Notes under the pieces: generated by a model
The model's database searches: none
The model's input: only the letters and a program-made list of their open reading frames with translations
Told to the model about the DNA's origin: nothing
Position numbers and translations under genes: made by a program
In this document: positions 682 to 9,079 of the stretch, one piece after another
How the letters are laid out: every line of letters starts with the position of its first letter
Position numbering within the stretch: position 1 is the stretch's first letter
Assembly: GCA_017470095.1 (NCBI GenBank)
Contig: JAFUFC010000010.1
Span: forward strand, 1-33,863
DNA: 33,863 nucleotides
Source: Clostridia bacterium
GTDB lineage: Bacteria; Bacillota; Clostridia; Christensenellales; Aristaeellaceae
Direction: 5' to 3'

Positions 682-710
682 TTGACAATCTTTCCGCGCG
701 ATGATAAACT
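682..710 (+). promoter_or_regulatory. Promoter of the T-box transcript
   Basis: TTGACA (682-687), 17 bp, TAAACT (705-710). Transcription would begin just before the T-box leader at about 731. Confidence 0.75.
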
Positions 711-730
711 ACATTCAATTTCATAACCAA

Positions 731-1061
731 AGGCGATGACGAAGACGGCGGAAGAAGCGCTGCTTTCCAGAGAGCCGGGGCAGCTGAAAACCGGCAGCAG
801 GCGTTTCCTCACAGAGCCCATCCCTTCCGAGCCGAAGCGGTGAACCTCGGGCCCGCGAAGCGGCCAATCCCTGAACAGGGCGGCTGTGGCCGGGCATGAA
901 ACGGGAAGTAATCGTCTTCCGTGATGGCTGCGTCAAGGCCGGCGGCTTGGAACACGAGCCGCGAGAGCGGCGCTTTTCAGCGCAATTTGAGTGGTACCGC
1001 GGGTTGAAGCAATTAAATCAGCTCGTCTCAAAGCGAAAATGACTTTGGGGCGGGCTTTTTT
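731..1061 (+). promoter_or_regulatory. T-box leader (tRNA-sensing riboswitch)
   Basis: Hallmarks visible in order. Lower stem I: CGGCGGAA (746-753) can pair with UUCC-GA-GCCG (825-834), leaving a GA bulge like the stem I K-turn. The distal AGAGAG motif is at 769-774, followed by a CCGG...CCGG hairpin. Further hairpins lie at 868-880 (CCCUG/CAGGG), 901-922 (ACGGGAAG/CUUCCGU) and about 943-962 (GCGGCU/AGCCGC). The T-box itself is GTGGTACCGCGGG (991-1003). The antiterminator UUUGAG (986-991) can pair with CUCAAA (1027-1032), which would break the 5' arm of the terminator at 1021-1061. Uncharged cognate tRNA would favour read-through into the HTH-cupin-ligase gene. I could not assign the specifier codon with confidence; candidates lie in 808-824. 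Confidence 0.88.
1021..1061 (+). terminator. T-box regulatory terminator
   Basis: GCTCGTCTCAAAG (1021-1033) pairs along its full 13 bases, with G-U wobbles, with CTTTGGGGCGGGC (1043-1055), and is followed by six T residues. Its 5' arm overlaps the antiterminator, giving the either/or switch. Confidence 0.88.
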
Positions 1062-1088
1062 CTCGCCCCGGATGAGGAGGAATGTACC

Positions 1089-3359
1089 ATGGATGTGACC
1101 CAGGCCCAGCATATGCCCGATCAGGTGCGGGAGGTGGCTGCCCGTATCCGGGAATTGCGGGAAATCAGCGGTTATTCTCAGGAGGAAATGGCCCGTTTGA
1201 CCGACGTGAGCGTCGATATGTACCGGGCGTATGAAGAAGCCCGCATCGATCTGCCTTTCACCTTCCTGCACAAGTGCGCCCTGACCTTTAAGGTGGAAAT
1301 GATCGACCTGATGGAGGGCCGCAGCGCGCAATTGTCCTCTTACACCATCACCCGCAAAGGCGCGGGCGAGGTGACCGCCCGGGAGCACGGCATCGATATT
1401 CGCAATTTGGCCCCCATGTTCCGCAAGAAGATTTCGGAGCCCTATTTCGTTCGCTATTCCTATGAGCCGGACCTGCAGGACAAGCCCATCCACACCACCA
1501 CCCACTCCGGCCAGGAATTTGACTACATCCTCTCCGGCGCTTTGAAAGTGCAGGTGGGCGAGCACATCGAGCTTTTGCGGGAAGGCGACTCCATCTACTA
1601 CGATTCCGCCACCCCCCACGGCATGATCGCTGCCGAAGGGAAGGATTGCGTGTTCCTGGCGGTGGTGCTGCCCGGAGAGGAAACGGAAGAGCGCCAGGTG
1701 ATGCAGACCATCAAGGCCAGCATGCCCATCGAGGAGCGCCTGATCAGCGACCGGTTTGTGCACACCACAGAAGACGAAACGGGCGCTCTCAAGGATATCT
1801 CCTTCTCCAACCTGGAAAACTTCAATTTTGCCTTCGATATCGTGGATGAATTGGCCGCCCGCAAGCCTGACCATCTGGCCATGCTGCACTTGGACAAGGA
1901 TCAAAAGGAGCGGCGCTTCACCTTCCTGGATATCAAAAAGCAGTCCAACCGTACCGCCAATTATTTCCGTTCCCTGGGGATTAAGAAGGGGGATAAGGTG
2001 CTGGTGGTGCTGCGGCGGCAGTATCATTTCTGGCTGAGCATGATGGCCCTGTGCAAGATCGGCGCCATCGCTATCCCGGCCACCGATCAATTGCTTCCCC
2101 ACGATTATGAGTACCGCTTCAACAAGGCGGAGGTCAGCGCCGTTTTGTGCACCGCCTACGGCCAGGCCGCTCAGCACGTGGAGGACGCCCTGCCCCAGTG
2201 CCCTTCCGTCAAGACCCTGGTCCTCTGCGGCGGCAGCCGGGCAGGCTGGCATGATTTCGACGCCGATTACGAAGCTTTCTCCTCCCGCTTCGCCCGCACC
2301 GATGAAACGCCCGCCGGCAGCTACCCCATGGTGATGTTCTTCACCTCCGGCACCACCGGCTATCCCAAGCTGGTGGCCCATAGCCACACCTATCCCCTGG
2401 GGCACTACATCACCGCCCGTTACTGGCACTGTGTGGTGCCGGGCAAACTGCACCTGACCATTTCCGATACCGGCTGGGGCAAGGCCCTGTGGGGCAAGCT
2501 CTACGGCCAATGGCTATGCGAATCCCCGGTGTTCGTCTACGATTTTGAACGCTTCCACGCCGAAAATATCCTGCCCCTGTTCAAGAAATACGATATTGCC
2601 ACCTTCTGCGCCCCGCCCACCATGTACCGCATGCTGATCAAAGAGGATTTGAGCAAGTACGATCTTTCTTCGATCCAGCACGCCACCATCGCCGGCGAAG
2701 CGCTGAACCCCGAGGTGTTCTACCAGTTCAAGAAGGCCACCGGCCTTTCCCTGATGGAAGGCTTTGGCCAGACCGAAACCACCCTGTCCATCGGCAACCT
2801 GGTGGGCATGGCCCCCAAGCCCGGCTCCATGGGCAAGCCCACCCCGCTTTTTGACGTGGATATCGTCGACCCCAACGGCAACCCCGTGCCTACCGGCGAA
2901 ACGGGCGAGATCGTGATCCGCCTGGGCGAAGGCAAACCCGCCTGCGGCCTGTACCTGGGCTACCTGGGCCAGGATAACAGCCACCCCGACGGCTTCTACC
3001 ACACCGGCGACACCGCCTGGCGGGATGAGGACGGTTACTTCTGGTATGTGGGCCGGGTGGACGACCTTATTAAGTCCTCCGGCTACCGCATTGGGCCGTT
3101 TGAAATTGAGTCCGTCATCATGGAACTGCCCTATGTGCTGGAGTGCGGCGTCTCTGCCGCGCCGGACCCCGTCCGCGGCCAGGTGGTCAAGGCCAGCATT
3201 GTGCTGGTGAAGGGCAAGGAAGGCACGGAAGAACTCAAGAAGGAAATCCAAAATTACGTCAAGCAGCGCACCGCGCCCTACAAGTACCCCCGCATCGTGG
3301 TCTTTAAGGACGAGCTTCCCAAGACCATCAGCGGCAAGATCCAGCGAAACCTGCTGTAA
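1089..3359 (+). CDS. HTH(XRE)-cupin-AMP-dependent acyl-CoA synthetase fusion protein
   Basis: 756 residues with three modules. Residues 15-76 form an XRE/Cro-type helix-turn-helix (RIRELREISGYSQEEMARL). Residues about 125-195 form a small-molecule-binding cupin, with candidate metal histidines in HTTTHS (about 134-139) and TPHG (about 176). Residues about 235-756 are an ANL-superfamily ligase: the P-loop FTSGTTGYPK is at about 416, GFGQTE at about 558, YHTGD at about 637, GRVDDLIKSSG at about 655 and ISGKIQR near the C terminus. It should adenylate a carboxylic acid and transfer it to CoA; the ligase half resembles the acetyl/medium-chain (ACSM-like) type, and the substrate is unknown. The HTH and cupin could sense the acid and repress its own or other genes. 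ATG 1089 follows GATGAGGAGG closely, right after the T-box terminator, so expression should depend on tRNA charging. The stop is followed by a palindromic repeat rather than another gene. Confidence 0.9.
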   Translation: MDVTQAQHMPDQVREVAARIRELREISGYSQEEMARLTDVSVDMYRAYEEARIDLPFTFLHKCALTFKVEMIDLMEGRSAQLSSYTITRKGAGEVTAREHGIDIRNLAPMFRKKISEPYFVRYSYEPDLQDKPIHTTTHSGQEFDYILSGALKVQVGEHIELLREGDSIYYDSATPHGMIAAEGKDCVFLAVVLPGEETEERQVMQTIKASMPIEERLISDRFVHTTEDETGALKDISFSNLENFNFAFDIVDELAARKPDHLAMLHLDKDQKERRFTFLDIKKQSNRTANYFRSLGIKKGDKVLVVLRRQYHFWLSMMALCKIGAIAIPATDQLLPHDYEYRFNKAEVSAVLCTAYGQAAQHVEDALPQCPSVKTLVLCGGSRAGWHDFDADYEAFSSRFARTDETPAGSYPMVMFFTSGTTGYPKLVAHSHTYPLGHYITARYWHCVVPGKLHLTISDTGWGKALWGKLYGQWLCESPVFVYDFERFHAENILPLFKKYDIATFCAPPTMYRMLIKEDLSKYDLSSIQHATIAGEALNPEVFYQFKKATGLSLMEGFGQTETTLSIGNLVGMAPKPGSMGKPTPLFDVDIVDPNGNPVPTGETGEIVIRLGEGKPACGLYLGYLGQDNSHPDGFYHTGDTAWRDEDGYFWYVGRVDDLIKSSGYRIGPFEIESVIMELPYVLECGVSAAPDPVRGQVVKASIVLVKGKEGTEELKKEIQNYVKQRTAPYKYPRIVVFKDELPKTISGKIQRNLL

Positions 3360-3697: not shown

Positions 3698-3726
3698 TTG
3701 ACTTTCCCACTTTTTTCCTCTATAAT
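3698..3726 (+). promoter_or_regulatory. Strong sigma-A promoter of the WG-repeat gene
   Basis: TTGACT (3698-3703), 17 bp, perfect TATAAT (3721-3726). It rules out translation starts upstream of about 3735. Confidence 0.85.
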
Positions 3727-3766
3727 GCAGGTGGGTTTAAATACGAAAAGGGAGATGAAAACCACA

Positions 3767-5341
3767 ATGAAAAAAATGCTGACGGTTTTGCTGGCGGCGG
3801 CGCTGCTGCTGTCCATGCTGCCCACCGCGCTGGCGGTTGGATCCCGGACGATGGTGGCCCGGGAATTGACCTTGAACAAATATTCCGGCACGCTCTCCTA
3901 CCGGGCGGACCGGAACAACTATTATCAGCTGATCACCGCCAACGGCGATGTGCTGGTGCCCGAAAGCGAGCAATACACCTACCTGGTGCCCACCAGCGGC
4001 TACGGCTTCTTCAAGGCGGAAAAGGCTTCCGCGGATGGCGTGCATGACGAGGGCCTGATCGACGGCCAGGGCCACGTGATCGTGCCTGCCGAATACGCCG
4101 ATGTGGATGTGATTTCTGAGCGGTGGCAGGTGGCCGTTAAGCTGACCCCCTCCGACGCCGACCACAAGGATTACACGTATACCAATTATTCCACCGGGGA
4201 TAAGCATTTTTTCCTCATCGATACGGCGGATTTCTTCTTTGACGGCCAGAAAGTGGGCACTCTGAACCGCAGCGATTATAGCAGCGCCAGGGCTTTGGGC
4301 GCCTACCTGTGCGTCACCAACCAGGCCCGGGAGCGGGTGTTCTACAACAGCAAGATGGAAAAATCCCCCCGGGAAGCCCAGTACAGCGGCGAATATGAAG
4401 AGCAGTACAAGCAAGGCACCACCACCTTCATCCACCAGGGCAGCGGCCAGCAGGCCTTCACCGCTTCCTGCACCCTGACCAAGGATGAAGTGGAAACCGC
4501 CTACCAATATATTAAAGGCAAGATGTACGATTTGCAGGGCAACGTGGCGTTTGTGCCCAAGCAGAATTACGATACCATCCGCGCGTTTAAAAACGGCTAT
4601 GCCGTGGTGCGCATGAACGGCCTCAACGGCCTGATTGACGAGCAGGGCAACGAGCTGATTCCCCCTATCTATGAAGAATTGAGCAATTATGAAGATACCC
4701 TGCTGGAATACGGCTACATCAGCGCTGTGAAGGACGGCAAATTTGGCTTCCTGGACGCTCACGGCCATGTGACATGCGATTTTGTGTATTCCAAGGATGT
4801 GGTCAAGAACCGCTCCACCTTTGCTACCATCCAGAACCTGGATGGCTCCATCATCGTGCTCAGCGCCGCTGTGGGCGAACTTCCGGAGCATTACACCGAT
4901 GTGTCCTTCCCTCGGTATGACGGCAGCGCCGCCTTCGTGGCCCAAAATGATCAGAAGCAGCTGAGCGTGGTTGACCTCTACGGCAACACTCGCATTCCCT
5001 TTGGCGATTACCGCTCCATCGACTTGACCGTGGATGGCACTGTGGCACTGGCGTATACCCAGGATCGGGAATATGTGATTTACAGCTTCGATCCTATCAC
5101 AGCCCAAGCGCCCGCCGCTGAAACTCCCGCCGTTTCCGAAACCCCCGCTGCGGCCGCTGCCGATGACAACTGGACTTGCGAAAACGGCCATGACGGCAAC
5201 CGCGGCAATTTCTGCTCTGAATGTGGTTCACCTCGTCCGGCGGAGCAGGCGGCGTCTACCTTCTGTAGCAACTGCGGTTATGAATTTACCGATGGCGCCC
5301 CCAAATTCTGCCCCAACTGCGGCGCGGCTGTGGCAAAATAA
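3767..5341 (+). CDS. Exported WG-repeat protein with C-terminal zinc ribbons
   Basis: 524 residues from ATG 3767, chosen because it follows GGGAG, begins the signal peptide and lies below the promoter at 3698-3726. Residues 1-23 (MKKMLTVLLAAALLLSMLPT then ALA) are a type I signal peptide. The body has WG/KWG beta-repeat units of the form GLIDxxGxxIxPxxYxxV, seen near nt 4060, 4620 and 4735. A Pro/Ala-rich linker (about residues 446-464) leads to two zinc-ribbon-like Cys motifs: one at about 465-488 (CENGH...FCSECGSPRP) and one at about 496-520 (FCSNCGYEF...KFCPNCGAAV). The function is unknown; WG repeats are thought to mediate protein or surface contacts. Zinc ribbons are usually cytoplasmic, so having them behind a signal peptide is odd. 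The gene is a single transcription unit ending in a terminator. Confidence 0.85.
   Translation: MKKMLTVLLAAALLLSMLPTALAVGSRTMVARELTLNKYSGTLSYRADRNNYYQLITANGDVLVPESEQYTYLVPTSGYGFFKAEKASADGVHDEGLIDGQGHVIVPAEYADVDVISERWQVAVKLTPSDADHKDYTYTNYSTGDKHFFLIDTADFFFDGQKVGTLNRSDYSSARALGAYLCVTNQARERVFYNSKMEKSPREAQYSGEYEEQYKQGTTTFIHQGSGQQAFTASCTLTKDEVETAYQYIKGKMYDLQGNVAFVPKQNYDTIRAFKNGYAVVRMNGLNGLIDEQGNELIPPIYEELSNYEDTLLEYGYISAVKDGKFGFLDAHGHVTCDFVYSKDVVKNRSTFATIQNLDGSIIVLSAAVGELPEHYTDVSFPRYDGSAAFVAQNDQKQLSVVDLYGNTRIPFGDYRSIDLTVDGTVALAYTQDREYVIYSFDPITAQAPAAETPAVSETPAAAAADDNWTCENGHDGNRGNFCSECGSPRPAEQAASTFCSNCGYEFTDGAPKFCPNCGAAVAK

Positions 5342-9079
<3,738 letters not shown>

Follow-up and report, generated by a model that had tools for sequence, protein, structure and literature searches.

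T-box control works by an established mechanism, and the locus described here raises the question of why a T-box should precede a gene for an HTH-cupin-acyl-CoA ligase, which amino acid it reports, and which acid the ligase activates. The window, by which we mean the whole stretch of DNA that was analyzed, comprises 33,863 nucleotides of Clostridia bacterium (contig JAFUFC010000010.1). We put at about 0.8 the probability that a tRNA-Ile-responsive T-box controls a 2-methylbutyrate ligase whose product would be converted to isoleucine by VorBAC and a branched-chain aminotransferase (BCAT), with a Val-specified paralogue serving the same route from isobutyrate.

The leader and its specifier codon

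The elements that the initial annotation had recognized (AGAGAG, T-box, antiterminator, 13-bp terminator, ribosome site, and ATG) were all located where it had placed them. The features are as follows.

682..710, + strand: predicted sigma-70-like promoter (TTGACA at 682-687, 17-nt spacer, TAAACT at 705-710)
727..1033, + strand: T-box leader (full-length RF00230 match)
769..774, + strand: AGAGAG of Stem I
820..822, + strand: specifier codon AUC (Ile); C823 comes next, then the basal Stem I helix (3' strand)
986..1032, + strand: antiterminator (986-991 paired with 1027-1032, plus 999-1004 with 1021-1026)
1021..1061, + strand: intrinsic terminator (13 bp, 1021-1033 paired with 1043-1055, then six T at 1056-1061)
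1074..1080, + strand: ribosome binding site GAGGAGG
1089..3359, + strand: gene for an XRE HTH - cupin_2 - AMP-forming acyl-CoA ligase of 756 amino acids (Pfam domains)
2478..2480, + strand: codon of Gly464 in TGW-G-KALWG, the acyl-pocket motif

The promoter, predicted from the consensus only, matched 10 of the 12 consensus positions (one such site found, 0.1 expected in shuffles), and a terminator-like hairpin of rpsT lies at 623-646. The T-box element GTGGTACCGCGGG occupies 991-1003, with its bulge UGGUACC (992-998) inside the antiterminator. Antiterminator and terminator are mutually exclusive, with 1021-1032 common to both, and 27 bases separate the T-run from the ligase ATG at 1089.

The T-box of the window is real and belongs to the class I transcriptional type. 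The Rfam model that the initial annotation had proposed to run, RF00230, matched the leader over its full length (1-219) with 45.0 bits and an E value of 8.6e-9 for a 481-base stretch, although below the Rfam gathering score of 93 bits, and the match was obtained in e-value mode. A default Rfam scan of the window returned no match because 45 bits lies under that score. In a scan of the whole genome (3.05 Mb), the T-box of the window (E 1.3e-8) was the weakest among the 15 T-boxes listed. Leaders of related genes scored above 93 bits (115, 104.6, and 101.4). The model alignment revealed that the Stem II region of the window copy carries a long insert and that the specifier loop has no AGUA/GAA S-turn; this motif is common but not obligatory for every T-box, and AGUA is present in the Val leader of locus L088.

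Given that unaided folding of the leader was no better than that of shuffles (z of -1.13, with 14 of 100 shuffles equally good), the T-box is supported instead by the covariance model, by conservation, and by covariation. We measured covariation in 43 extracted leaders against 500 shuffles. For the terminator, 96.0% of cells were paired, and double changes occurred in 6 of 13 pairs (32 double-change cells versus a shuffle mean of 4.1); for the antiterminator, the corresponding values were 96.3% and 3 of 12 pairs (17 cells versus 1.5). The number of double-change cells was reached by 0 of 500 shuffles in either helix, values that are not probabilities since the leaders are related. Weaker measures for the antiterminator were reached more often, the covariation score by 15 and the number of pair types by 92 of the 500 shuffles. 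An earlier count on 33 of the 43 leaders (ten omitted, L039 and L136 by choice) had the same outcome. Both the terminator and the antiterminator thus covary.

The specifier of the window leader is AUC (Ile). The covariance-model alignment places AUC 820-822 at the specifier, and the register that we used, in which the codon and one further base precede a basal helix closing with GAG or a variant, holds for the T-boxes of nine synthetase genes in this genome: valS (GUC), metG (AUG), alaS (GCC), pheS (UUC), ileS (AUC), serS (UCC), thrS (ACC), proS (CCG), and hisS (GAC, Asp), a hisS-aspS pair being common. Eight of these synthetase names were over their NCBIfam cut-offs; ileS, an incomplete piece, scored 568.8 bits (cut-off 621.4). 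In the same register, a gene for a TrpX-like binding protein (204 bits, under the NCBIfam cut-off of 390) read UGG, and leuA-like, LDH-like, and aminotransferase-like genes, with all NCBIfam matches under cut-off, read CUC, UGG, and UAC, respectively. Five of the 13 reads (valS, thrS, proS, the binding protein, and LDH) were made by eye from the leaders, with the motifs checked. The remaining one of the 15 T-boxes lies at a contig end (C15), where it reads GUG and heads the Val paralogue of this genome, the rest of which is on contig C175. The base that follows the window specifier is C823, the usual base at this position being A or G.

Two of these leaders merit separate mention. The T-box at G000:C154:2743-3003 (L115; UGG for Trp, by eye) precedes an L-lactate-dehydrogenase-like gene (277 bits, cut-off 303) whose product is perhaps an aromatic hydroxy-acid dehydrogenase, and that at G000:C97:31389-31635 (L116; UAC for Tyr) precedes a PLP aminotransferase-like gene.

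Isoleucine- and valine-specified ligases

The protein downstream of the leader matched PF01381/PF13560 (HTH), PF07883 (cupin_2), PF00501 (207.8 bits), and PF13193 (74.7 bits). The ANL-superfamily motif T419-S-G-T422 and K750 were invariant among 18 sequences. The best NCBIfam match of the ligase part was MbcS (NF047394) with 418.9 bits, below the equivalog cut-off of 850, and the best match among solved sequences was PDB 3etc (784.6 bits), the medium-chain acyl-CoA synthetase of Methanosarcina acetivorans (MacsMa).

Relatives of the ligase (E up to 1e-60) were present in 45 of the 60 genomes examined, that of the window included, mostly at two per genome. As a second sample, we took loci of named MAGs, most of them from the ruminant gut; these were the best 80 of a larger number. 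Together these sets gave 178 ligase genes with N-termini (66 from the 60 genomes and 112 from the MAG loci, some loci being in both), two matches of the first set without an N-terminus having been omitted, and 169 distinct proteins of at least 600 amino acids. A specifier was readable in 153 of the 178 genes, across several families (90 AUC, 45 GUA, 13 GUG, and 5 GUC), and none of these 153 leaders carried a specifier for an amino acid other than Ile or Val. The patterns applied accept any three bases at the specifier and so do not favor Ile or Val. The Val specifiers have constant first and second bases and A, G, or C as the third, as expected of a codon. The tight patterns, ordered by strictness, read 153 of 156 leaders with a T-box core; loose patterns misread, giving other codons in 9 rows with 3 unread and, in a second version, 8 and 10, respectively.

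Three of the 178 genes had a T-box core with an unreadable Stem I, and in another 22 the patterns detected no core; of these, 10 are the second genes of tandem pairs. One of the 22, L083_5190, has an Rfam T-box of 91.9 bits and AUC by eye. No T-box match was found near the ligases of six genomes (G050, G041, G058, G037, G033, and G030). Both the model match and this comparison of orthologous leaders, in which the T-box is kept, bear out the claim of the initial annotation that a T-box controls the HTH-cupin-acyl-CoA ligase.

The same counts bear on the idea that the T-box remained behind when a synthetase gene was lost and is unlinked to the ligase. T-boxes are thought to have been duplicated onto other genes and then re-specified, as described in the available text of PMC2494555, which would allow for such a history. 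The Ile or Val T-box is nevertheless readable in most of the related genes in several families, and ileS is located elsewhere in the genome with an AUC T-box of its own, so that the loss of a synthetase gene from this site, which the initial annotation had named as a refuting case, is not what we found. We consider this explanation extremely improbable.

The two specifiers correspond to two types of ligase. In a tree of 46 chosen ligases, the Ile/Val label changed only twice, compared with a mean of 15.6 for shuffled labels, and a tree of 133 rows labeled with a poorer pattern likewise showed two changes. One Val group stands apart from all Ile rows. The second is nested in the Ile group as sister to the Ile ligases of the window's genus (SH-aLRT of 99-100, quick search), and the pair therefore probably arose anew through a duplication in which the specifier changed accordingly.

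Residue 464, a position chosen post hoc after inspection of the columns, was Gly in all 88 distinct Ile-type proteins and Ala in all 60 distinct Val-type proteins, both Val groups included, and was the sole fully split column among the best 28 columns listed. Seven further divergent T-box ligases were read by eye. Five were consistent (L083_5190, G045, two of G057, and G051), and two broke the rule (G035 with Met and AUC, G040 with Ala and AUC). The corresponding stretch of 3etc is SGW-G-KCVW, with Gly at the counterpart of residue 464; its second Trp is Trp259, as counted from the tag-ending Met in the alignment. According to the available text of PMC10455477, Trp259 of MacsMa occupies a position like that of the Trp that determines which acyl groups acetyl-CoA synthetase accepts, and the preferred substrate of MacsMa is 2-methylbutyrate. 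A smaller pocket for a smaller acid, isobutyrate, is the direction that would be expected of Ala. From the specifier, Gly464, and MacsMa, we infer that the ligase of the window is most likely a 2-methylbutyrate-CoA ligase.

The fused HTH-cupin part could provide a second, ligand-sensing layer of control, as the initial annotation had proposed. In G035, the HTH-cupin is a separate gene before the ligase, with one AUC T-box ahead of both, an arrangement suggesting that the fusion united two genes of an operon. The motif AAT(T/C)N(C/G)ATA, which directly follows the -10 element (711-730 in the window), was present in 38 of 39 Ile and Val leaders from the genus of the window and in 12 of 114 other leaders, some of which belong to that genus under another locus id. 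It is a possible operator, to be taken only as a lead.

At L190:11572-11823, a T-box of 101.8 bits with UUC (Phe) by eye was observed, and the best family of the next gene was PaaK (525.7 bits, cut-off 646.3).

Candidate genes for the proposed route from branched acids to amino acids

The initial annotation had suggested that the ligase activates a branched acid for rebuilding of one amino acid by reductive carboxylation with a PFOR-like enzyme. Rebuilding of an amino acid from a branched acid is favored by the Ile specifier, the Val-specified paralogue, the pocket residue, and the gene content and clusters described below; the proposed partner enzyme did not stand. The product of the gene at 5468-9079 is a canonical pyruvate:ferredoxin oxidoreductase (1909 bits against a cut-off of 911), and PFOR was not found in the regions round the ligase in 17 relatives (about 4 kb upstream and up to 8 kb downstream). 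We therefore rejected it as the partner. In G007 and G026, a match of PFOR length lies farther upstream on the same contig as the ligase. A WG-repeat protein with a zinc-ribbon-like end, encoded between ligase and PFOR (3698-5341), was likewise not found in the regions of the 17 relatives.

The likely partner is VorBAC, encoded on another contig of the same genome. VorB (NF005507) at G000:C15:5091-6161 scored 456 bits against a cut-off of 399 and is followed by beta (106.8 bits) and gamma (94.1 bits) subunits, both under their model cut-offs. The vorBAC genes are divergent from the Val ligase T-box on C15 and are preceded by a gene for an ATPase that matched no family at E 1e-15. A BCAT over its cut-off is encoded at G000:C89:22605-23657, 57 bases behind the gene for an 825-amino-acid protein with a CoA-ligase part; the order on this contig (L114:6350-11658) is Leu (CUC) T-box, leuA-like gene, the 825-amino-acid protein (CoA ligase C-terminal), and BCAT. 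The genome, with a completeness of 92%, had no match for ilvC or ilvD and only a 27-bit match for ilvB, with no true ilvB.

In other families, these genes form one cluster (L083 and L088) consisting of leuA-like, Ile ligase, Val ligase, BCAT, ATPase, VorB, beta, and gamma genes; the L090 cluster is similar, without BCAT there. In L088, BCAT and VorB were over their NCBIfam cut-offs, and beta and gamma were under theirs. P-loop ATPases of approximately 222-228 amino acids with no over-cut-off family recur beside vorBAC (L088:10355-11023, L113:6470-7156, and others), and at other loci, too, CUC or CUG T-boxes are found with leuA-like genes.

These neighborhoods bear on whether the ligase instead feeds branched-chain acyl-CoA primers to membrane fatty acids, with the T-box only reporting that their usual source, the breakdown of Ile or Val, is short. 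MbcS, the best NCBIfam name for the ligase even if under its cut-off, is said to supply such primers, and the same acyl-CoAs would be involved. The five neighbors scanned behind the L088 ligase pair are, however, BCAT, the ATPase, and three VOR subunits; the ligase accompanies vorB and the absence of ilvC and ilvD; and primers do not require distinct Ile- and Val-controlled copies. We regard a role in primer supply as unlikely.

Co-occurrence was scored in the 60 genomes with the ligase at E up to 1e-60 (unfused relatives included) and with ilvC and vorB over cut-off. Ligase and ilvC were both present in 2 genomes, the ligase only in 43, ilvC only in 10, and neither in 5 (Fisher 2e-6), and the corresponding counts for ligase and vorB were 42, 3, 3, and 12. 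In a set restricted to a single genome from each family of the order (24 genomes), they were 1, 11, 9, and 3 for ilvC (p 0.0028) and 12, 0, 3, and 9 for vorB (3e-4). The genomes are related and mostly incomplete, so that Fisher values overstate independence. Counter-cases are G024 and G047, which have ligases together with ilvC, and G024, G047, and G051, which have ilvB over cut-off. A protein of the ilvD family (498-554 bits, cut-off 618) was found in seven ligase genomes.

VOR is reversible in known systems, and these genomes commonly contain other 2-oxoacid oxidoreductases, as would suit a catabolic arrangement in which ligase and VOR serve amino-acid fermentation and run towards acids. A T-box switches genes on when the amino acid is scarce, however, which is the wrong sign for fermentation, and the window genome lacks matches for ilvC, ilvD, and a true ilvB. 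The catabolic arrangement appears very improbable.

Proposed mechanism and relation to known systems

In the reading that we prefer, isoleucine made from 2-methylbutyrate, scarcity of isoleucine would leave tRNA-Ile uncharged, and this tRNA would pair with the specifier and the T-box bulge. The antiterminator (986-1032) would then keep 1021-1032 from the terminator (1021-1055), and the ligase would be made; with charged tRNA-Ile, the terminator would remain. The ligase would convert 2-methylbutyrate to 2-methylbutyryl-CoA, which VorBAC, running in the direction of synthesis, would combine with CO2 and reduced ferredoxin to yield 3-methyl-2-oxopentanoate, and BCAT would convert this product to isoleucine. 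The Val-specified paralogue would open the same route from isobutyrate. Flux through the route would replace the ilvBCD pathway that was not found in the window genome.

A wider scheme, possible though somewhat doubtful, would be that gut Clostridia lacking de novo synthesis of branched-chain amino acids salvage acids by means of an entire T-box regulon. It would comprise one tRNA-controlled CoA ligase per amino acid: the Ile and Val ligases, a Leu-specified operon with leuA-like and ligase genes, and, in one locus, a phenylacetate-CoA-ligase-like gene with a Phe specifier. The HTH-cupin part of the Ile and Val ligases would sense acid or acyl-CoA and regulate its own promoter and the divergent vor promoter. 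The protein would thus be both enzyme and repressor, and tRNA charging would gate the system from outside.

We found no open-access paper that links a T-box with acyl-CoA synthetase, CoA ligase, or phenylacetate-CoA ligase, subscription literature being outside the scope of the search, and T-box with isobutyrate returned only papers that appeared unrelated by title and start of abstract. The available texts of PMC3766115, PMC2494555, and PMC7778990 name no CoA ligase or acyl-CoA genes as T-box targets, and that of PMC7583486 lists no target genes. In our reading, genes for acid-activating enzymes would be added to the range of T-box targets. For each of the two ligase types, the specifier codon indicates the amino acid concerned and so offers substrate predictions for otherwise unassigned enzymes, and the ligases are candidate marker genes for dependency on branched acids in uncultured Clostridia.

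The window leader resembles the class I T-box of RF00230 in its Stem I AGAGA, specifier, Stem II AGUA, T-box sequence UGGUACCGCG, and mutually exclusive antiterminator and terminator. It differs from the usual T-box in its target, an acyl-CoA ligase, in its long insert, and in lacking the AGUA/GAA specifier-loop motif. MacsMa is the closest solved sequence to the ligase and shares Gly at the counterpart of residue 464, whereas it is archaeal, has a chain of 580 residues, and is without the HTH-cupin part. To our knowledge, T-box control is not to be expected in archaea. The MbcS model NF047394, the best NCBIfam match although under cut-off, has 525 positions, which correspond to the ligase part alone.

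That rumen microbes form branched-chain amino acids by carboxylating branched volatile fatty acids was reportedly described by Robinson and Allison in 1969 and by Allison and Peel in 1971, both as cited in PMC7356843. The available text of PMC7356843 has 2-methylbutyrate giving Ile and isobutyrate giving Val in the rumen, and that of PMC10658910 also contains the carboxylation route in rumen microbes. These works provide the route, from 2-methylbutyrate to isoleucine and from isobutyrate to valine; for this route, known for decades, we propose here candidate genes and their control by tRNA.
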